From assembly GCA_028274925.1 (NCBI GenBank), contig JAQCNR010000457.1, positions 1 to 37,323 of the forward strand: a stretch of DNA of 37,323 nt, written 5' to 3'. The notes beneath the pieces are model-generated. The model did no database searches. It had not been told where the DNA came from and worked only from the letters and a program-made list of their open reading frames with translations. Origin of the DNA: Halovenus sp. GTDB lineage: Archaea; Halobacteriota; Halobacteria; Halobacteriales; Haloarculaceae. Both the position numbers and the translations under genes were made by a program. This document shows, one piece after another, positions 7,759-28,490 of this stretch; the stretch's first letter is position 1, and each line of letters starts with the position of its first letter.

Positions 7759-8586
7759 TCAGGCCCGCAGTTCCTGCACCCGGTCGATGTTCCACTCGTA
7801 GCTCTTGCCGTCCTCGGTTGGGGTCTCGAGAGCCAGCGGCACGACAAGAATCGCCTCGAGGTTGAGGAAGGCCCGCATTCCCTCCTCACCAATCTTCCCC
7901 TCGCCGATGTGGGCGTGTTCGTCTTTGTTCGTCCCACAATCGTGCTTGGAATCGTTCAGGTGAACGTAGGCAAGTTTGTCGAAGCCGACCACCTCGTCGA
8001 ATTCGGCGAGTGACTCCTCGACAACCTCGCTTGAGGAGAGGTCATAGCCCGCGGCGAAGGCGTGGGCAGTATCCAAACAAACCTCGATGTCGGCCTCTGT
8101 CCGGTCGATAACTCCGGCGAGATGCTCGAACTCGCCGCCGAGTTTGGTCCCGCTGCCGGCGTCGGATTCGATTAGCAGTGTCACGCCATCGGGCATCTCC
8201 AGCGAGTCGACAACCTCGGCTGCATTGTCGAGTCCACCCTCGACGCCCGCGCCGGTGTGCGCACCGAGATGAACGTTGACGTACTCGACGCCGAGTTGGT
8301 TGGCAGCGTCGAGTTCGGCTTGCATACTCGAAAGTGATTTTTCGCGGAGGTCCTCTTTCGGCGTTGCGAGGTTGACGAGATACGCCGAGTGGATGACCCA
8401 CGGGCTAACGTCCGACTCGGCTGACCCATCTCTGAACTGCTGTGCCTCGTCGGCTTCGATTGTGGGTTCCTGCCAGACTTGCGGCGAGGTGGTGAAAATT
8501 TGTCCGCAGTTGCCGCCGACATCGAGTTGTCGCTGGACTGCGTTATCGACTCCGCCCGCCACCGAAACGTGTGCGCCTACCTGCAT
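7759..8586 (-). CDS. nfo: Deoxyribonuclease IV (endonuclease IV, AP endonuclease)
   Basis: [66 protein letters not shown]. Start set to 8586. Confidence 0.92.
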
Positions 8587-8625
8587 ACCCAACACAAGGC
8601 CGGCGGCGGGCATAGTGGCTTCGGC

Positions 8626-9438
8626 TTACGCGAGCGGGTCGGTCCGGTCGCGGTTCCACGCAGACGAGTCGTATTTTTGCTCGGCAATCTCACGCGCTCG
8701 GTCGAGTTCGCCGTCTGTCCACTGACCAACATCGGCGTCGGCCCACTCCCCGAGTGCGTCTTCGAGGTGTTCGACAGCCACCTCCCGGTCGATTCCAGTC
8801 TGCTCGCGAATCGAGGTCACACGCTTCCGGAACTGCTCGGCGTCCACATCCGCGCCGTCGAACACAGCGAGGTGTCGCTCTGGCTGGACTGCGTACGACA
8901 GCGACCCGTGCTGGATGATGGCCTCGCGCTGGCGGTACTGGGCGTTGCCGCTGATTTTCTGGCCACCGGCAAGAATGTCGTGGGCCGGGTTGATTGCTCG
9001 GAGATAGCAGGCCGGGTGGTAGATTGCGTCGTGCTCGCTCTCGGCGAAGGCTGCGTCGACGCCCATGCGCTGGAAGGCGTCGAGAACCGGTTTGCAGAGC
9101 AGTTCGTAGCTCTCCATCAGGTTGCCGGGCAACTCATCAGCCGGGGCGATAATCGAGTATGAGATGTCGCCGTCGTGGTCGTGGTAGATGCCACCGCCGC
9201 CGGTCTGTCGACGCGTGACGGTAACTCCCTCGTTCTCACAGTACTCCCAGTCAATAGAGTCGGGCGATTGGCGGTAGCCGGCGCTGAGTGTGCTCGGGGT
9301 CCAGCGGTAGACACGCACTGTCCGTGGGCCGCCCGCTGCCGCCGTTTCGGCGGCCACCTCGTCCAGCGCCATCTGCGTCGGTCCTGGGCAGTTCTCCTCG
9401 GGAACCAGCCGCCAGTCCCGGTCCGCGAGCGTGGTCAT
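8626..9438 (-). CDS. Lipoate-protein ligase A / BPL-LplA family protein
   Basis: MTTLADRDWRLVPEENCPGPTQMALDE...RVYRWTPSTLSAGYRQ...RRQTGGGGIYHDHDGDISYSI...KISGNAQYR. Upstream extension in the ORF track is spurious. Confidence 0.85.
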   Translation of the reverse strand: MTTLADRDWRLVPEENCPGPTQMALDEVAAETAAAGGPRTVRVYRWTPSTLSAGYRQSPDSIDWEYCENEGVTVTRRQTGGGGIYHDHDGDISYSIIAPADELPGNLMESYELLCKPVLDAFQRMGVDAAFAESEHDAIYHPACYLRAINPAHDILAGGQKISGNAQYRQREAIIQHGSLSYAVQPERHLAVFDGADVDAEQFRKRVTSIREQTGIDREVAVEHLEDALGEWADADVGQWTDGELDRAREIAEQKYDSSAWNRDRTDPLA

Positions 9439-19337: not shown

Positions 19338-20498
19338 TCAGGACTCTTCGGTATCCTCGCCTCCATCGCTCTCTGCCACCACATCCTCACCCGTGCTTCC
19401 CGCTGTTGTGCCGGAAGTTGCAAGTACACTGTCCCCATCAGCAGGCGGTGTGGGTGGCTCGTACTGGTAGGTCGTCTCGTCGAGTAACACCGCGAAGATG
19501 TCTCGGGATGGGTCTTCGATAACCCGTCGGTTGCTGTCGATTGCGACATCGACGAGCCCTTCCAGCGAGTCGACCGCAACAGTTCGACCGTCCATCGCGT
19601 CGGGCGGAACCCTTCCCTGGGTCAGCCACTCGTCGAAGGTCTGGAGCTCGGACTGAAAGTCAATCCACTCGCGTTCGCTCTCTGATACCGTTGCCCACCC
19701 GCTGGCCCGGCTACCGACGACGCCAGCGAGTCCGAGCACGGAGAGCACCACTACTAACGGACCGCCGACAGACCGTAGTGGGCCATAGCTTGCCACAACG
19801 CGGACCGGTTCGGTCTGACTGCCACTATTCGTTACTGCAGAGTCAGTCGCGACACTGTAGGTTCCACCACCTGTCTGGATTGTAAGGCCATCGGTGATTG
19901 TTTTGTTAACCGGCTGGCCGTTACGCTGTCCGGTGAGCTGCAGGGTCGTCTGGACGGACACCTCCGACTCACCTGGTGTTCCGCCGAGTTCCTCCTCGAT
20001 TTCATTGATTCGGCGCTGCTGGTCGGTCACGTTGACCGAAAAGGGAACGGCAAATTCCTCATTCGGCCCAAGTTGCTGCGTTCTTTTCGTTGTGAGCGTC
20101 TGCTCGTCGCGCCAAAACTCAGTGTTTTCGCCGACGGAGCGAAGCACCAGCGTCAGCGTTGCGTTCGCTGTGAGCGACCCGCTTGCCGACGCATCGTAGC
20201 TGTATTGAAATGTGCCGTTAAGCACCGGGGCGATTGACTGTAAGTAGACGCTCTGGTCGGTCAGTGTCTCCCCCACGGTGAAAACGGGTGTCTGGGTCTG
20301 AACCGTGGCTTCGTGTGTGTACGTCGCTGTCGAACGCCAGTTCGACCTTTCCTCTTGTTCAATCTCTGTCCCCGGGTCCACATGGGCGGTATAAGTCACG
20401 AACCCGCCAAGTACAGAGAGCAGGAACAACCCTGCCACGAGGATGGCCACATTGTCGGCGATAAGCAGCCGCAGCTGTCCCAACCACCTACGCATCAT
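19338..20498 (-). CDS. DUF5305-like membrane-anchored extracellular protein
   Basis: N-terminal TM (IADNVAILVAGLFLLSVLGGFVTYTAHVDPG), beta-rich extracellular region, second TM (GGPLVVVLSVLGLAGVVG), cytoplasmic acidic tail. Confidence 0.7.
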   Translation of the reverse strand: MMRRWLGQLRLLIADNVAILVAGLFLLSVLGGFVTYTAHVDPGTEIEQEERSNWRSTATYTHEATVQTQTPVFTVGETLTDQSVYLQSIAPVLNGTFQYSYDASASGSLTANATLTLVLRSVGENTEFWRDEQTLTTKRTQQLGPNEEFAVPFSVNVTDQQRRINEIEEELGGTPGESEVSVQTTLQLTGQRNGQPVNKTITDGLTIQTGGGTYSVATDSAVTNSGSQTEPVRVVASYGPLRSVGGPLVVVLSVLGLAGVVGSRASGWATVSESEREWIDFQSELQTFDEWLTQGRVPPDAMDGRTVAVDSLEGLVDVAIDSNRRVIEDPSRDIFAVLLDETTYQYEPPTPPADGDSVLATSGTTAGSTGEDVVAESDGGEDTEES

Positions 20499-20540: not shown

Positions 20541-21668
20541 TCACGATGACCACCATGACCCGCGCGTGCGACTCCGCTCTCTCAATCGTCCGCCGCCAAG
20601 CAGCCAAATTCCAACGAGATAGAACGGGACGGCAACGAGTAGGTTGATGACGATAATCGGTGTCCACGGGTGGAGACGGTATAGCCGTTCGATGACCGGT
20701 GTCGGGAGCACACGCAGATACCGGTACTGCTGGACGAACGCGCGGTACTGACCCGTCTCTTCGGGCGCCGAGATAGTGACTTCTACGGTGGCAGCTGACC
20801 GACCCTCGACCGAGAGCTGTCGTGGCTGTGCGTCGATACGCTCGCCAGTCGGTTCGAGAAAGACGACTGTCGGGATAACTCCAGTATTCTGGACTGTGTA
20901 GTTGAGCGATTCTGTACTCCCTTGTTCGATGACAGTCGGCGAGTCGCTCTGAAACTCTGCGCTAATGATACCAAACTCCTGGGCTCCAGCAGGAACAATC
21001 ATCGATGCCGTCACACCGGCGATGACGACCAGCGTCAACACGCCCATCAGCTTATACGCACTTGTGCCGGTGTCACGGCTACGGTCCCGACTTCGCTGCT
21101 GATCTGACTCGAACCGTCCGGCGACAGCGTACAGCACGACTGACACTCCGAGGAGGAGGTATCCGACCCCCTGCAATCCGAGAAACGCACGCGATCCGAA
21201 TATCTGTGCGAGCCAAATCTGGAGTGACCTCACTGCCGACTGAATCCACAGTATTGCAGCGCCCAGAAACGGAATCGTCAGCACCGACCCACCGGGACGC
21301 CACGCGACGGCTTTGACCTCTGCCTCGGACACCGGCGGCTCTCCACCGTCTTGGTCGGTGAACGGATTGTTATCTCCCTGCGTGATGTACCCCTCGTCGG
21401 TCACGTCGACGACGCGGTGTGTCGTCAGCCCGCCGCCCTGGATTTCCTCGGACTCGAAGACGATGACGTCACCCTCATCCACATCGTCGGCGAGTTCCGG
21501 CGGCACCGCGACGAAGCCGTCCCCGACATCGATTGTTGGCTCCATACTCTCGGACGTGACGAAGCTCAACAGAATCGGCTGGCCGAGCACCTGGCCGACG
21601 AGCAGCGCGAGTATGACGACTACGATGGCAATCTGAAACGCGCTCCAGAGTGTGCGTCGGAGTTCCAT
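20541..21668 (-). CDS. Signal peptidase I (S26B/SipW-like) with a long C-terminal membrane/beta-sandwich extension
   Basis: VTSESMEPTIDVGDGFVAV (catalytic Ser), GGGLTTHRVVDVTDEGYITQGDNNPFTD (catalytic His box), followed by about 220 extra residues with several TMs and a CARDB-like segment. Confidence 0.88.
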   Translation of the reverse strand: MELRRTLWSAFQIAIVVVILALLVGQVLGQPILLSFVTSESMEPTIDVGDGFVAVPPELADDVDEGDVIVFESEEIQGGGLTTHRVVDVTDEGYITQGDNNPFTDQDGGEPPVSEAEVKAVAWRPGGSVLTIPFLGAAILWIQSAVRSLQIWLAQIFGSRAFLGLQGVGYLLLGVSVVLYAVAGRFESDQQRSRDRSRDTGTSAYKLMGVLTLVVIAGVTASMIVPAGAQEFGIISAEFQSDSPTVIEQGSTESLNYTVQNTGVIPTVVFLEPTGERIDAQPRQLSVEGRSAATVEVTISAPEETGQYRAFVQQYRYLRVLPTPVIERLYRLHPWTPIIVINLLVAVPFYLVGIWLLGGGRLRERSRTRGSWWSS

Positions 21669-21727
21669 TATTACACCCAACCGACCTTTGGTAACTACAG
21701 TTCGACAGCTATTGGCTCGACGATCGC

Positions 21728-22459
21728 CTAGCTCTCCTCACACGAATCCCCGTAGTGAGTTCCGTCGATTTCGACACAGGCAATAGCGTCTATATTACCC
21801 GTATTCTCTTTAACCTGGTTCTTGAGATTCTTATTAGGCTTGAACTCCCCGGTCTGGGTCTGTTCGTTCCCGTCAGTATCGACGTAGGTGACTGTCGCGT
21901 TCCGGCTCTGGCCTCCGGTTATTTTTGCGTCGCCATTTCCAGTGTATTCGACAAGCTCTCTTTGATTCGACGAATTTTGGCTCGACGAATTCCCCGCCGC
22001 ACACGTTACGGTGAACGACCGCTCTATGGTTTCGCTGTCGCCCTCCACTGTCGCACTGACAGTGTCTCCGGTGACCGTCACTGTGGCAGTGACCTCGGCT
22101 TCTGCCGCCGGCCTACAACTTGTTACGTCAGCCCTGACCCTTCCTGCCTCGCCGGAGGAGATTGTCGGATATTCCGGGGGACCAAACTGAATATCGTTGT
22201 CATCGGTTACGATGCCGACGTCAGTCACCTCAACTTCCTGCGCGAATCTATTCGATATGTCGACGATTTCGATAGTCTCGCCCGACTCGATTTCACTTTT
22301 GTCTGTAGTATTGTACCCGATGAACGCACTTTCATCGTCCGCAACATCGACAGAGATGGCCCGGTCGGCCGTCGTCGAGCTGAACCCGAGGCTGCCGGAA
22401 ACAAGCAGGAGTCCAGCCGCAACCGCCAGCCCAATGCTCAGGAGTCGTACAGTGTTCAT
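21728..22459 (-). CDS. Secreted DUF1102/TasA-like protein (Sec signal peptide)
   Basis: MNTVRLLSIGLAVAAGLLLVSGSLGFSSTTADRAISVDVADDESAFIGYN; the DRxISVxVxxDxxA segment matches the protein at 23921-24604. Confidence 0.65.
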   Translation of the reverse strand: MNTVRLLSIGLAVAAGLLLVSGSLGFSSTTADRAISVDVADDESAFIGYNTTDKSEIESGETIEIVDISNRFAQEVEVTDVGIVTDDNDIQFGPPEYPTISSGEAGRVRADVTSCRPAAEAEVTATVTVTGDTVSATVEGDSETIERSFTVTCAAGNSSSQNSSNQRELVEYTGNGDAKITGGQSRNATVTYVDTDGNEQTQTGEFKPNKNLKNQVKENTGNIDAIACVEIDGTHYGDSCEES

Positions 22460-23070: not shown

Positions 23071-23787
23071 ATGGAACGACGCAAATTCTTGATCGGCGCA
23101 GGATCGCTCGCTGCTGGCGGGGCAGCTGCACTAGGTAGTGGCGCGTTCACGAGTGTCGAAGCACAGCGAGAGATTGAATTAGCTATCCAGCCGGATGGCG
23201 AAGGTGCATACCTTGACTTTGGGAATACTAGCCAATATGCAAATAAGAGCGGAGGTACGCTCAGTCTCACCTTTGATGAACAAGCTAATACTTCAGGAGG
23301 TAAGGGAATAAGTTCCCAAGCGAACAGTACATTTGAGGGCGTGTTTAGTGTCTATAACAACGGTACGCAGGAGGTCAGCATTAATATTCCAACTGGTTCG
23401 GACCCAGAGAATTCTCCAGGGGTAGCCTCAACTCAGTTCTTAGTTGCGGAGGGCGACTCATTGAGCGACGACCCTTACGGATATAAATATGGAACAGGGC
23501 CAGTTGAAGTAGATTCAGTTGATATTTCATGGCCAGGTGAGACTATCCCAGAAAACAAACCTAGCAACCCAGTTCCGGAGACAGGAACTGAGGGTAATGT
23601 CAGTGGAACGCGTGTTAGGACAGAGTATCAAGGCCTTCGCTATCCTGGCGGACAGGCTGTGGTTGGAGTTGGCCAATCCGTGAGCGTTGACGTGAGATTT
23701 ACCGTTTCAAATCCGCGTGAGCAAGAGAATGACTTCGGAACAGAGCCATTCATCATTGAAGCTGAAGCAACTAATCAGAGTCAATAA
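23071..23787 (+). CDS. Tat-targeted DUF1102-type secreted protein
   Basis: MERRKFLIGAGSLAAGGAAALGSGAFTSVEAQREIELAIQPDGEGAYL; start 23071 within the longer ORF. Confidence 0.75.
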   Translation: MERRKFLIGAGSLAAGGAAALGSGAFTSVEAQREIELAIQPDGEGAYLDFGNTSQYANKSGGTLSLTFDEQANTSGGKGISSQANSTFEGVFSVYNNGTQEVSINIPTGSDPENSPGVASTQFLVAEGDSLSDDPYGYKYGTGPVEVDSVDISWPGETIPENKPSNPVPETGTEGNVSGTRVRTEYQGLRYPGGQAVVGVGQSVSVDVRFTVSNPREQENDFGTEPFIIEAEATNQSQ

Positions 23788-23920: not shown

Positions 23921-24604
23921 ATGAAACGACGCAAATTCCTAATCGGCGCGGGGGCGCTCGCCGCGGGAGGAGCAGCCGCGTTGGGGAGTGGCGCGTTCAC
24001 CTCGGTTGAGGCTGACCGCGACATTTCGGTCGAAGTCACGGGTGACAACAACGCCCTTGTTAGACTCACGCCGGTTGTCCACCGAATCGAGAATGTCCCC
24101 AACGAAGACCGACCGGTCTACTTCGACGGCGGAATCGAAGACGGCACACTTGGAATCGATACGTCACGGTCACTGGCGAGTGGTGTCAACGCCAATGCGG
24201 TTACGTGGCTCGGGACGCCCAATTTCGACGAGCAATCGGGATGGGTTGGGATTAACGAGGATAATATCGACTGGGCCGGGGATCATACGTACACTCCTCG
24301 CGCCGCGTTTGGGATTGAGAACCGAGGAACGCAGGAGTACGACTTAACGTTTGAGTACCAGTACGCCAATGACCCCGGCGACTCGGAGATTACCTTCGAG
24401 TTTTATGACGGAGCAGCACCGGCATTAGGTAACTCATTTCCGCGCAAGATTGGGACGCTCACAGGAAATAATTCGGTGAGTGTCAAGGCCGGAAGCAGCG
24501 GTAACTCGTTCAGAGTTGACAAACGAATCTTCAGCTCGGTCAGAATAGATACTGGAGCGGTGGGCGACGACCTTTCGGGAGCACTCACAATCAGAGCAGA
24601 ATAA
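23921..24604 (+). CDS. Tat-targeted DUF1102-type secreted protein (paralogue of preceding gene)
   Basis: MKRRKFLIGAGALAAGGAAALGSGAFTSVEADRDISVEVTGDNNALVRL; signal region nearly identical to the preceding gene. Confidence 0.8.
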   Translation: MKRRKFLIGAGALAAGGAAALGSGAFTSVEADRDISVEVTGDNNALVRLTPVVHRIENVPNEDRPVYFDGGIEDGTLGIDTSRSLASGVNANAVTWLGTPNFDEQSGWVGINEDNIDWAGDHTYTPRAAFGIENRGTQEYDLTFEYQYANDPGDSEITFEFYDGAAPALGNSFPRKIGTLTGNNSVSVKAGSSGNSFRVDKRIFSSVRIDTGAVGDDLSGALTIRAE

Positions 24605-25053
24605 TCGTAACTCCATAGCTGCCAGACATTCACAAAATCTGTGAATGTAATCCACACCGCTGCAGTTGAACTCGGGGTCAGCGATCATGCGGAAGTTGTG
24701 CTCGTGATTGATGCACTTGGGATTTAGTCTGTCTCGTTGTTCTCGTAAATATTTAAATAGTGACAATCAAAGATAATGTAACTCTGTAGGCAAATTAACA
24801 CCAGTCCATTCCTGATAGTTAGACTGCATCACTCTGGACGGTCTATAATTCTCGGCCAGAAGTCCCAATGGAAGATTGCATACCCGATTACTATTTATTC
24901 ATAAGTACTAGCAGATAACATTAATATAGCTACTATTTGTCCAAGGCGCAACTACATATAAAAGTATTTTACTCTATTTTCATTGCTGATTTTGATACCA
25001 GTCTAGTAATTTATACTCCATACGACCCACGTCAGACATATATCAATCTGAAT

Positions 25054-25638
25054 ATGAGTGCCAGCCAACAGCCAGTCGGTCGACAGCAGGATGGCGACAC
25101 AGACGAAATCTCCCACGACGAGTGTTTCGAGCTGTTGAGCAACCACCGTCGCCGTTTTACCCTGCACCATCTCCGGCAGGCTGAGAACGGCACGGACCTT
25201 GGCGAACTAGCCGAACAGGTCGCTGCATGGGAAAACGAGGTTCCACTCGAAGAGATATCCTACGACCAGCGAAAGCGCGTCTACACGTCTCTCCAGCAGG
25301 TCCACCTTCCTCGGATGGACGATATGGGTGTGGTGGAATTCGACGACAGGGAGGGAACGGTGACGATGGGGCCCGCTGCCGAGGAACTGGACATCTATAT
25401 GGAAGTCGTCAGCGGAAAGGATGTCCCGTGGGGCTATTTTTATCCTGGGCTTGCGGCTGTGAACTTTGCTGTCGTGGGCCTCGCCGCGGGCGGCGTGCCC
25501 GGATTCGACGCCTTTTCTGGACTCGGCGTTGCCGTCTTCGTCGCGACGACGTTTCTCGTTGCCTCGCTCGCACACCTGTACGTTGCTCGCACGGAGATGC
25601 GTCTTGGCTCTGATGGCGACCCACCGGAGGTAGGCTAG
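25054..25638 (+). CDS. wHTH regulator with two C-terminal TM helices (DUF7344-like)
   Basis: DECFELLSNHRRRFTLHHLRQAENGTDLGELAEQVAAWENEVPLEEISYDQRKRVYTSLQQVHLPRMDDMGVVEFD then two TMs; start 25054 chosen. Confidence 0.8.
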   Translation: MSASQQPVGRQQDGDTDEISHDECFELLSNHRRRFTLHHLRQAENGTDLGELAEQVAAWENEVPLEEISYDQRKRVYTSLQQVHLPRMDDMGVVEFDDREGTVTMGPAAEELDIYMEVVSGKDVPWGYFYPGLAAVNFAVVGLAAGGVPGFDAFSGLGVAVFVATTFLVASLAHLYVARTEMRLGSDGDPPEVG

Positions 25639-25641
25639 TAA

Positions 25642-26520
25642 CTACCCGGTTAGCTCGACGTAGACGAAGACGACGATGAACGAGAGCGAGAACCCCAATA
25701 GATGGACGTAGACGTCCAGCACCCCGGTGTCGAGGGTGACAATCTCACGGAATCCGATGAAGGGATAGGAGACGATGAGGCCGAGGCCAGCCCCCGCGAG
25801 TTCGGCGTACCCGAACCGGTCGAAACGCTCTCTGAGCGCTGCGTTCTGCAGGTGCGAGCCTCGACGGACCCAGAGGGTTACGTAGCCGATGCCAAGGCTG
25901 ATCGAGGCGGCCCCAATCTGGAGGCGCCACGCCCGGCCTGGCAATGTAATGAGTGCAATCACGCCAGATATCACGAACAGTACTGCCGGTGCGTATCGGT
26001 TGTTCTCTGTCTCGAGAAATTGGTGTCCGATATAAGTGACCCACGCGACACAGAGCAATCCAAACAGTCCTGCGTTGAGCCCAGAAAAGCCCAGTATTTC
26101 GCGCTGGCGCGGAAAGAGCAGTTGCATCCCCGAGAGCGCGAACGGAAAGACCGCAAGCAGCGTCACGAACATTCCTCGAAACAACTGTCGCCGGTCGCTG
26201 AGTATACAGAGCAGATAGGTAACCGGAGCGACAGCGAGATAGACGGCGAGATTTCCAAGCAGGTGGAGTTGCTGTCGGTGGACGAAATGCGAGAGATACG
26301 CCGTCCGAACGGTGGGGTTTCCACGCTCGAATACGAACTGCTCACAGGTTGGAGCTGGAAGCAAAAATACGACGACGAGTACCAGCGCCACAGGCATAAT
26401 TGCCGCTAAATCAACTGGGGATGTCGCTCGCACAACTGCTCGCCGAAAGCCCTTCCCGTTGATCTTTGTCATCGTTGTCTGGTCTGACTCCCCGACTTTG
26501 CTGTCGCCCTGCGTTGTCAT
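25642..26520 (-). CDS. Rhomboid-family intramembrane serine protease (candidate rhombosortase-like)
   Basis: SHFVHRQQLHLLGNL (HxxxN, TM2-like), LGFSGLNAGLFG (GxSG, Ser at 26083-26085), DVYVHLLGFSLSF (C-terminal TM His). Multiple TMs. Confidence 0.82.
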   Translation of the reverse strand: MTTQGDSKVGESDQTTMTKINGKGFRRAVVRATSPVDLAAIMPVALVLVVVFLLPAPTCEQFVFERGNPTVRTAYLSHFVHRQQLHLLGNLAVYLAVAPVTYLLCILSDRRQLFRGMFVTLLAVFPFALSGMQLLFPRQREILGFSGLNAGLFGLLCVAWVTYIGHQFLETENNRYAPAVLFVISGVIALITLPGRAWRLQIGAASISLGIGYVTLWVRRGSHLQNAALRERFDRFGYAELAGAGLGLIVSYPFIGFREIVTLDTGVLDVYVHLLGFSLSFIVVFVYVELTG

Positions 26521-27491
26521 AGTGCGCGTCGTACTGCAGATGCTGTTCCAACGCCGAGTACCAGCCCGACGACCAGTACGAGCAGCCAGTTCAGCCCCCC
26601 GATTGCGGCCTGGCCGGACTGGAACGATTCCCCGAGTTCGGTGACTGAACCGGCGGCCTCTGCGCCAGCGCCGGGTTCTGAGTCTTCACCAACGCCCGTC
26701 CCGTCCTCAGCATCGGACTCGGGCGACGGCTCTGGTACGTCGGCCGGACCCGCAACGTCTGGTGGCGTTCCGTCTCCGCCGCCGTCACCTGTTCCGTCTC
26801 CGTCGTCGTCACCCGCTTGGTCTCCACCATCGTCACCCGTCTGATCTCCGCCGCCGTCACCTGTTCCGTCTCCACCATTGTCACCTGCTTGATCTCCACC
26901 GCCGTCACCCGCTTGATCTCCGCCGGAGTCCTCGGGTGACCCAGGTGCGCTATCACCACCGGACGGTCCGGATGTGTCGACTGGCACCTGCTCGAAGTCG
27001 CTCCCTCCACTATCGCTGGTGACGACAATGAAAAACCGGTCAAACTGCTCAATCTCCTCGGCGGCCCCTCTCGTATCGATGAGGACACCGACGCGAACCT
27101 CTTCACCCCCTTCGAGCGTCACCCCGGTCTCCTTACTCTCGATTGTCTGGCCTGGGTCCGCTCCGTGGTAGAACTCGACACCCGACACAGGTGTCTCGAA
27201 CCAAACGGTTGCAGTTGGCGAGCCGGTGTACTGAACGCGAAACACGCGGTCGAACCTTGTCACTGCCTCCCTGTTGACCCCGATTTTTGTGCCGTCCTCT
27301 GTGGTCTGAGTAAAATCGAGGCGCATGCTGCCGCCAGTCTGGACGGCATAGTCGCTGTTCGAACTCGTGGTTGGGGAGAGTTCGAGGTCAGCAGTGCTCA
27401 CTGGCTCTTGGCCTGCCTGACTGCCGGCTGTCGGGAACAACAGCAGACAGACGCCAACGAGGGCTACCGCCGTGAGTGCTGCTCGCCTCAT
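26517..27491 (-). CDS. Secreted protein with Gly/Asp-rich stalk and GlyGly + TM + Arg-Arg C-terminal anchor
   Basis: N-terminal signal peptide, beta-rich domain, 8-aa tandem repeats, C-terminus AAIGGLNWLLVLVVGLVLGVGTASAVRRAL*. Stop overlaps the rhomboid start (ATGA). Confidence 0.8.
   Translation of the reverse strand: MRRAALTAVALVGVCLLLFPTAGSQAGQEPVSTADLELSPTTSSNSDYAVQTGGSMRLDFTQTTEDGTKIGVNREAVTRFDRVFRVQYTGSPTATVWFETPVSGVEFYHGADPGQTIESKETGVTLEGGEEVRVGVLIDTRGAAEEIEQFDRFFIVVTSDSGGSDFEQVPVDTSGPSGGDSAPGSPEDSGGDQAGDGGGDQAGDNGGDGTGDGGGDQTGDDGGDQAGDDDGDGTGDGGGDGTPPDVAGPADVPEPSPESDAEDGTGVGEDSEPGAGAEAAGSVTELGESFQSGQAAIGGLNWLLVLVVGLVLGVGTASAVRRAL
26766..26924 (-). repeat. Tandem repeat encoding degenerate 8-aa units (GGDQAGDx)
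   Basis: GGDQAGDG GGDQAGDN GGDGTGDG GGDQTGDD GGDQAGDD DGDGTGDG GGDGT: about 6.5 units of 24 bp. Confidence 0.85.
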
Positions 27492-27562: not shown

Positions 27563-28150
27563 TCAGAACCGCTTGGCACCGTCTGGTAACAGCGCGTCGA
27601 TGTTCTCGACAGTCGCCTCGAGATACGGATCGTCATCGCGTTCGGTTAGTTCAACTGAGTCCCGAAGTTGGCCGAACTCCTCTCGCAACTCGGTATAGCG
27701 CTCGCTCTGTTGAAGCTGCTCGTAATTTAGTTTGGCTTCGAGCGTCGCTAGCTTCGAGCCGAGTTCGACAATCTGTTGAATCTGTTCGTCCAATCGGTCT
27801 CGTTTGAGCATTCGCTCGACAGCATCGTTCAATTGCGCCCCAGAGACCGGTTTGACAAGATACTCGTCGAAATCGAGAGTTACCATATCCATGTCTGGGT
27901 CCACGGCCGTGACCATAACGACCCAGCAGCCGAGTTCACGCTCTCGGACACGTTCTAGCACCTCGTCGCCGTTCATCTCTGGCATCCGGCGGTCGAGCAA
28001 CATGACATCGACAGCCGTATCGAGTTTCTCGAGCGCCTCTTGCCCCGAATTTGCGGTTTGAGTCGTGTACGTATCATCCAACTGTTCCCGATACGTTCCG
28101 ACGACATCTGGCTTGTCGTCGACGATCAGAACCTCCGGATCCCCTGTCAT
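27563..28150 (-). CDS. Response regulator with HalX C-terminal domain
   Basis: EVLIVDDKPDVVGTY...VDVMLLDRRMPEMNGDEVL...YLVKPVSGAQL receiver domain plus HalX-like coiled C-terminus. Start 28150. Confidence 0.88.
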   Translation of the reverse strand: MTGDPEVLIVDDKPDVVGTYREQLDDTYTTQTANSGQEALEKLDTAVDVMLLDRRMPEMNGDEVLERVRERELGCWVVMVTAVDPDMDMVTLDFDEYLVKPVSGAQLNDAVERMLKRDRLDEQIQQIVELGSKLATLEAKLNYEQLQQSERYTELREEFGQLRDSVELTERDDDPYLEATVENIDALLPDGAKRF

Positions 28151-28490
28151 CGGTCGAGATATATATCTCCTGATAATTAACCGTTCTGATAAACCGACGG
28201 CTATAGTCGTCAGCACAAGGGAAAAGCAGGGGGTTGCCCCCCAGCGTGTGACACTACGGAGCCAGATGGCTCCAATATTTCATATGAGGGCCAGAAGAAT
28301 AAGACTGCTGGCTGGCTCTCAATTCTGATTTTGGCCGTTCTAGGCGATAGTTGGTCCGGTTTGAGCGGTTGCTATCCGCTAGGTCGTTCGTGGTGGTCTG
28401 AAGAGAGACCGATATGGAAAACTACCGTCGTCGGCTTGTACAGCAGTTTGCCCCGCAGTTATATACTCACAGAGAGTAAGTGAGCTATCC

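Follow-up and report, generated by a model that had tools for sequence, protein, structure and literature searches.

Rhomboid proteases, sorting tails and fimbriae

Rhombosortases are bacterial proteases of the rhomboid family, paired with proteins that carry a GlyGly-CTERM, in which a glycine motif is followed by a transmembrane (TM) helix and a basic tail. Bacterial rhombosortases that have a single target usually adjoin the target gene (PMC3237569). In Vibrio cholerae, VesB is cut so that its second glycine is exposed and then modified (PMC6219818). Archaeal surface proteins can also end in a tripartite tail, the PGF-CTERM, which is handled by archaeosortase A, a protease family unrelated to the rhomboids. 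Haloarchaea have rhomboids too. Rho1 and Rho2 of Haloferax volcanii have been tied to surface phenotypes; their natural substrates have yet to be identified, and the accessible part of the account describes no dedicated neighbouring substrate (PMC11985538). An open-access literature search returned no report of an archaeal rhombosortase, nor of a link between a rhomboid and the fimbrial protein TafF.

The Tat-fimbriae of haloarchaea (TafA, TafC, TafE and TafF; Natrinema J7-2, 9p0a) resemble the system described below in their TafA/E/C/F-like proteins, SipW-like peptidase and beta-sandwich subunits. Beta-sandwich fibre subunits are likewise found in archaeal bundling pili (AbpA, 7ueg) and encoded by the Bacillus tapA-sipW-tasA operon. 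The latter has its own dedicated peptidase, SipW. Neither the Bacillus operon nor AbpA-type operons are known to include a rhomboid.

A TafF-like protein and a rhomboid in a fimbrial cluster

The window, which is the whole stretch of 37,323 nucleotides of Halovenus sp. DNA that was analysed, encodes a 324-residue protein (26517..27491, minus strand), the candidate substrate, followed by a 292-residue rhomboid protease (25642..26520, minus strand). The stop codon of the first gene and the start codon of the second share an ATGA in the DNA. A preliminary description of the locus had given both reading frames, which agree with the sequence to the base, the ATGA overlap and a Gly-Gly at 26595..26600; the glycines prove to be residues 298 and 299, and the arginines of the tail residues 321 and 322. 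The architecture that it proposed for the first protein, a signal peptide, beta-domain, stalk and IGG-TM-RR tail, is borne out by the sequence and by an AlphaFold model built with 20 sequences in the alignment.

All parts of this protein are encoded on the minus strand. The signal peptide covers approximately residues 1-26 (27414..27491), as read from the sequence and from an N-terminal hydrophobic helix (residues 2-18) in the model. It is followed by a beta-domain (residues 36-172; 26976..27386) modelled mostly as high-confidence strands, and by a low-complexity Gly/Asp stalk (residues 176-297; 26601..26966) which has a pLDDT below 50 and cannot be aligned across homologues; the model is disordered from residue 176 to 299. 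Hydrophobicity and a model helix at residues 300-323 define a C-terminal TM helix (residues 300-320; 26532..26594). It is abutted by the predicted cleavage region, Gly298-Gly299 (26595..26600), and leads into a basic tail, Arg321-Arg322 (26526..26531), recognised from column conservation, so that the C-terminal end reads QAAIGGLNWLLVLVVGLVLGVGTASAVRRAL. Because the model helix starts at residue 300, the two glycines are placed at its outer end.

The TafF profile NF052523 matches the protein with an E-value of 4.8e-11 and 42 bits, below the equivalog cut-off of 420 bits. The best PDB fold match of the model is the Tafi pilus of Natrinema (9p0a, E 9.7e-4), and the Pyrobaculum bundling pilus is also among the matches, these Tafi/AbpA-like folds corresponding to the beta-domain. 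Together with homologues that neighbour rhomboids elsewhere, this profile and fold evidence indicates that the protein is homologous to TafF but a separate equivalog. The canonical Haloarcula-type TafF differs at its C-terminal end, where there is no Gly-TM-RR tail, and of the six loci of this kind that were examined (L140-L145), only two have a rhomboid of the family described here in the vicinity.

Upstream of the pair is a HalX response regulator (27563..28216, minus strand; PF00072 and PF08663); in three related loci (L038-L040), the pair likewise comes after a similar regulator of about 192 residues. Convergent with the rhomboid is a DUF7344 protein with C-terminal TM segments (24937..25638, plus strand; PF24035, 109 bits), a probable regulator whose gene is found in most loci of the rhomboid family. 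Two proteins with Tat signals are encoded on the plus strand: a TafA/TafE-like pilin (23921..24604; NF052522 E 4e-15, NF052520 E 1e-11), which matches by sequence the Tafi pilin of known structure from Natrinema sp. J7-2 (9p0a, E 1.6e-8), and a TafE-like protein (23071..23787; NF052522 E 9e-17), whose start is inferred from the profile match. On the minus strand follow a TafC/TafE-like fimbrial protein (21728..22459; NF052521 E 5e-11), a SipW-like signal peptidase I (20541..21680; TIGR02228 70 bits, above its cut-off; NF046067 SipW 42 bits) and a DUF5305 membrane protein (19338..20498; PF17231, 209 bits). All Taf scores fall under the equivalog cut-offs, so the cluster is related to the published Taf cluster without being identical to it. 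With Tat-signal TafA/E-like pilins, themselves under those cut-offs, and a SipW-like peptidase nearby, it is nevertheless of Tat-fimbria type, and its gene content places the pair within a tafi/TasA-like cluster for Tat-fimbriae. The preliminary description had recognised a real pair while overlooking both this fimbrial setting and the TafF-like identity of the substrate.

An intact catalytic set in an enlarged rhomboid

The motifs expected of a rhomboid had been pointed out in the preliminary description and are all found: HxxxN (H86 and N90; 26251..26265), the serine motif G-F-S146-G (G144 to G147; 26080..26091) and a catalytic-type H273 in a YxHxxG context in the last TM segment (25702..25704), all on the minus strand. 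They are invariant in 60 to 62 sequences across the family (H86 60/60, N90 60/60, S146 62/62, H273 61/61). The structural model (pLDDT 88, pTM 0.86) has E. coli GlpG as its top PDB folds, with a Foldseek probability of 0.99-1.00, an E-value of only about 0.1 and a TM-score of about 0.5 to the target. The catalytic set of the superfamily (HxxxN, GxSG, TM His) is therefore present, in what is predicted to be a rhomboid fold. The Pfam rhomboid family PF01694 does not match the window protein, and matches six of 13 family members, at best with 7e-5.

The spacing of the catalytic residues is unusual. The Ser and His helices of the canonical six-TM core are about 55 residues apart, and two generic haloarchaeal rhomboids have 56-59 residues between Ser and His; in this family the distance is 119-163 residues (median 132). 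Compared with the generic proteins, approximately 70 residues have been added between the two helices throughout the clade, which agrees with a pair of extra helices seen in the model. The same long spacing is found in a sister group (L032-L037). This is a topology variant, with the protein still inside the superfamily, and because of the insertion the geometry of the active site is uncertain. Pseudoproteases are common in the rhomboid superfamily, and the departure from the six-TM core might suggest a catalytically dead protein that serves the TafF-like protein as a chaperone or in quality control. Inactive rhomboids, however, as a rule lose residues such as the Ser, His and HxxxN that are invariant here, making this a very improbable account.

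Two further features of the sister group may be mentioned. In the genus of the window, one locus (L036:5948-7351, minus strand; G016:C355) encodes a 467-residue protein in which a receiver domain of the response-regulator type (residues ~9-128) is fused to a sister-group rhomboid. In L034 and L037, sister-group rhomboids adjoin proteins ending ..TTPSGATK..RVPDSLANQEAVS[IL], two of them in tandem in L037, and these are possibly a different partner.

The preliminary description spoke of an archaeal rhombosortase-like pair. In support of a true rhombosortase that came from bacteria and acts on a GlyGly-CTERM protein, one may cite gene adjacency like that of the bacterial single-target systems (PMC3237569) and weak, sub-threshold matches to the rhombosortase model TIGR03902 in every one of the 13 proteins in the first family alignment. 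The window rhomboid, however, scores 20.2 bits against an equivalog cut-off of 84, and its match ends ahead of the part containing the His. Since two generic rhomboids encoded in the same genome reach 27-29 bits, more than the paired one, the match carries no specific information, and membership of TIGR03902 was rejected. The window tail has no match to the GlyGly-CTERM model TIGR03501 (cut-off 15.5 bits); a homologue in G020 barely passes at 15.8 bits, over the hydrophobic and basic part of its tail. The window tail also lacks the Ser-rich context of a GlyGly-CTERM, the candidate target belongs to a fimbria, the rhomboid is longer by ~70 residues between Ser and His, and every relative found is haloarchaeal. 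A bacterial origin of this kind is hardly credible. What stands of the earlier proposal is a conserved, dedicated pair, present in many genera and with intact catalytic residues; what does not is membership of the bacterial families. By the tests available, the archaeal pair resembles the rhombosortase system in anatomy and gene logic and is not a member of it.

Conservation of the pair

When GTDB genomes were scanned with the rhomboid sequence as the only bait, 67 loci were recovered, all of them haloarchaeal, of which 62, including the window, have a called rhomboid. The immediate upstream gene on the same strand encodes a TafF-like homologue in 43 of these 62, and the downstream gene a SipW-like signal peptidase in 40; fimbrial cluster genes are present in 51. 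A profile search (A3) that was swamped by the PGF-pre-PGF domains of unrelated surface proteins was left out of these counts. Gene calls were made with a simple codon-usage script, so errors are possible in single start sites and in a few of the calls. The pairing covers Halovenus, Haloarcula, Halorubrum, Halobellus, Haloplanus, Halolamina, Halobacterium and Natronosalvus. In a tree, the rhomboid clade is old and extends across Halovenus, Haloarcula, Halorubrum and others, and most of its branches carry the pairing. Among 400 genomes of the order, 169 have a match to a family or sister-clade rhomboid at E<=1e-10. From its distribution in these genomes, the pairing of TafF-like protein and rhomboid is real and old.

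The co-occurrence that had been predicted is therefore seen in most loci, and the exceptions are a minority. Some family rhomboids lie in Taf clusters with no adjacent Gly-TM-RR TafF (L041, L042, L142, L143), some have no Taf cluster within the stretch covered (L043, L051, L055, L066, L071), and in Halomicrobium-type loci (L089, L148, L150) the adjacent TafF-like protein was called without a C-terminal TM segment. These exceptions weaken a strict one-to-one rule. A second rhomboid paralogue of Halovenus-type genomes (L041-L043) has no Gly-TM-RR neighbour and is convergent with a DUF5305 gene in L041 and L042.

It is conceivable that the rhomboid does serve the fimbrial cluster and yet cuts another of its membrane proteins, such as DUF5305 or the DUF7344 protein, or else a misassembled subunit, with the TafF-like tail being a permanent anchor. 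The first part of this alternative draws on the four Taf-cluster rhomboids without a Gly-TM-RR neighbour, two of which adjoin DUF5305, and the second on the plain TM segments of many TafF homologues in loci that lack a rhomboid. This alternative accords poorly with a tail that is kept beyond an unalignable stalk, that was found a single time in each tested genome, next to the rhomboid, and that is different when the rhomboid is absent. We consider it unlikely, while giving it some weight.

The C-terminal tail

The preliminary description expected GG and RR to be conserved. In the columns of the window alignment Gly299 is glycine in 24 of 26 sequences and Gly298 in 17 of 26, the latter position being mostly Gly, Ser or Ala; Arg321 is found in 26 of 26 and Arg322 in 22 of 26. 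RR and the membrane-proximal glycine are thus kept and the first glycine is variable: in this alignment, good conservation is confined to that one glycine and the arginines, and a double glycine is not strict.

A Gly-TM-basic tail is present in 52 of 59 rhomboid-adjacent TafF-like proteins and in seven of 24 non-adjacent ones (Fisher p 3e-7, uncorrected for relatedness); one of these seven, L064, sits in a rhomboid locus. Among the non-adjacent homologues, three have PGF-CTERM tails (L151, L165, L171) and several others plain TM segments or other ends. No rhomboid-adjacent TafF-like protein has a PGF tail, a count that leaves out a convergent PGF-CTERM protein of 2748 residues in L031, which probably matches only by way of a domain held in common. 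In that locus, the genes for the large protein and the family rhomboid (L031:257-8503 and 8500-9378) overlap by four bases.

A Halorubrum-type tail profile, which does not detect the window tail, found in each of four genomes a single strong match, the neighbour of the rhomboid (7.8e-19, 1.4e-18, 4.9e-15 and 1e-11), the next best being 0.008 or weaker. The marks of a single-target system are accordingly seen as adjacency in 43 of 62 loci and uniqueness in these four genomes with the Halorubrum-type tail. In Halorubrum salinum (L078:2111-7665), two tandem proteins of 1306 and 508 residues lie ahead of the rhomboid, and each has a TM-Arg tail of the EPAGLG type, so that more than one substrate is possible.

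Could the tail be a diverged PGF-CTERM processed by archaeosortase A, with the rhomboid incidental? The genome of the window encodes archaeosortase A, many homologues read EPGGFG..TM..RR, and 19 of 26 match the PGF-pre-PGF domain, which normally stands ahead of a PGF-CTERM. Halorubrum-type tails hold both EPGGF and LGGL, and the window IGG can be aligned with either; the EPGGF string is also present in a rhomboid-less locus, L161. A direct scan with the PGF_CTERM model (TIGR04126), however, gave no match at E<10 for seven rhomboid-linked tails, while true PGF tails, used as positive controls, scored 1e-8 to 1e-13; the PGF-CTERM reading of the tail was rejected on this basis. The window tail has no PGF, and in Haloferax a permuted PGF motif reportedly blocks archaeosortase processing. 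We regard processing by archaeosortase A as quite improbable. That 19 of 26 homologues have PGF-pre-PGF although the tails lack a PGF_CTERM match suggests, from sequence comparison, an exchange of tail type during evolution. Beside archaeosortase A, the window's genome contains four other rhomboids, which makes the paired rhomboid an extra and dedicated one.

A model for processing of the TafF-like subunit

The explanation that we favour, as probable though well short of firm, is a dedicated pair, rhombosortase-like and separately defined in archaea, in which the rhomboid would cut the TafF-like subunit at the boundary between glycine and TM helix. An N-terminal signal would direct the export of the TafF-like minor subunit, and its C-terminal Gly-TM-RR tail would keep it in the membrane with type I topology. 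The rhomboid would recognise this tail and cut at the membrane or slightly outside it, with Gly298-Gly299 as the likeliest site. Cleavage may release the subunit, or pass it on for incorporation into the fimbria or re-anchoring, while the SipW-like peptidase encoded in the cluster would trim N-terminal signals. Cleavage, its site and its consequence for the subunit are all inferred. In type I TM helices, the outer end is where rhomboids prefer small residues. Cleavage at Gly298-Gly299 would fit the TafF-like protein, with its type I topology and such residues in that position, and the intact active-site motifs of the rhomboid.

A bolder version, which we think unlikely, sees a transferase-like haloarchaeal rhomboid sortase of separate origin that would cut at the glycine, hand the subunit over to a lipid or to another fimbrial subunit, anchor the fibre, and be interchangeable in evolution with archaeosortase and PGF-CTERM.

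Implications

On the favoured explanation, a rhomboid beside a membrane-anchored fimbrial protein probably trims its tail. This suggests that fimbriae of this type have two membrane proteases of their own, each dedicated to one end of the subunits. Those who study haloarchaeal rhomboids name the identification of natural substrates as future work (PMC11985538); the pairing with a TafF-like protein provides a specific, conserved and testable substrate candidate for haloarchaeal rhomboids. If the proposal is true, it would bear on how fimbrial fibres are anchored or released, and rhomboid-plus-tail sorting, which in the literature found is described for bacteria only, would be extended to the archaea.
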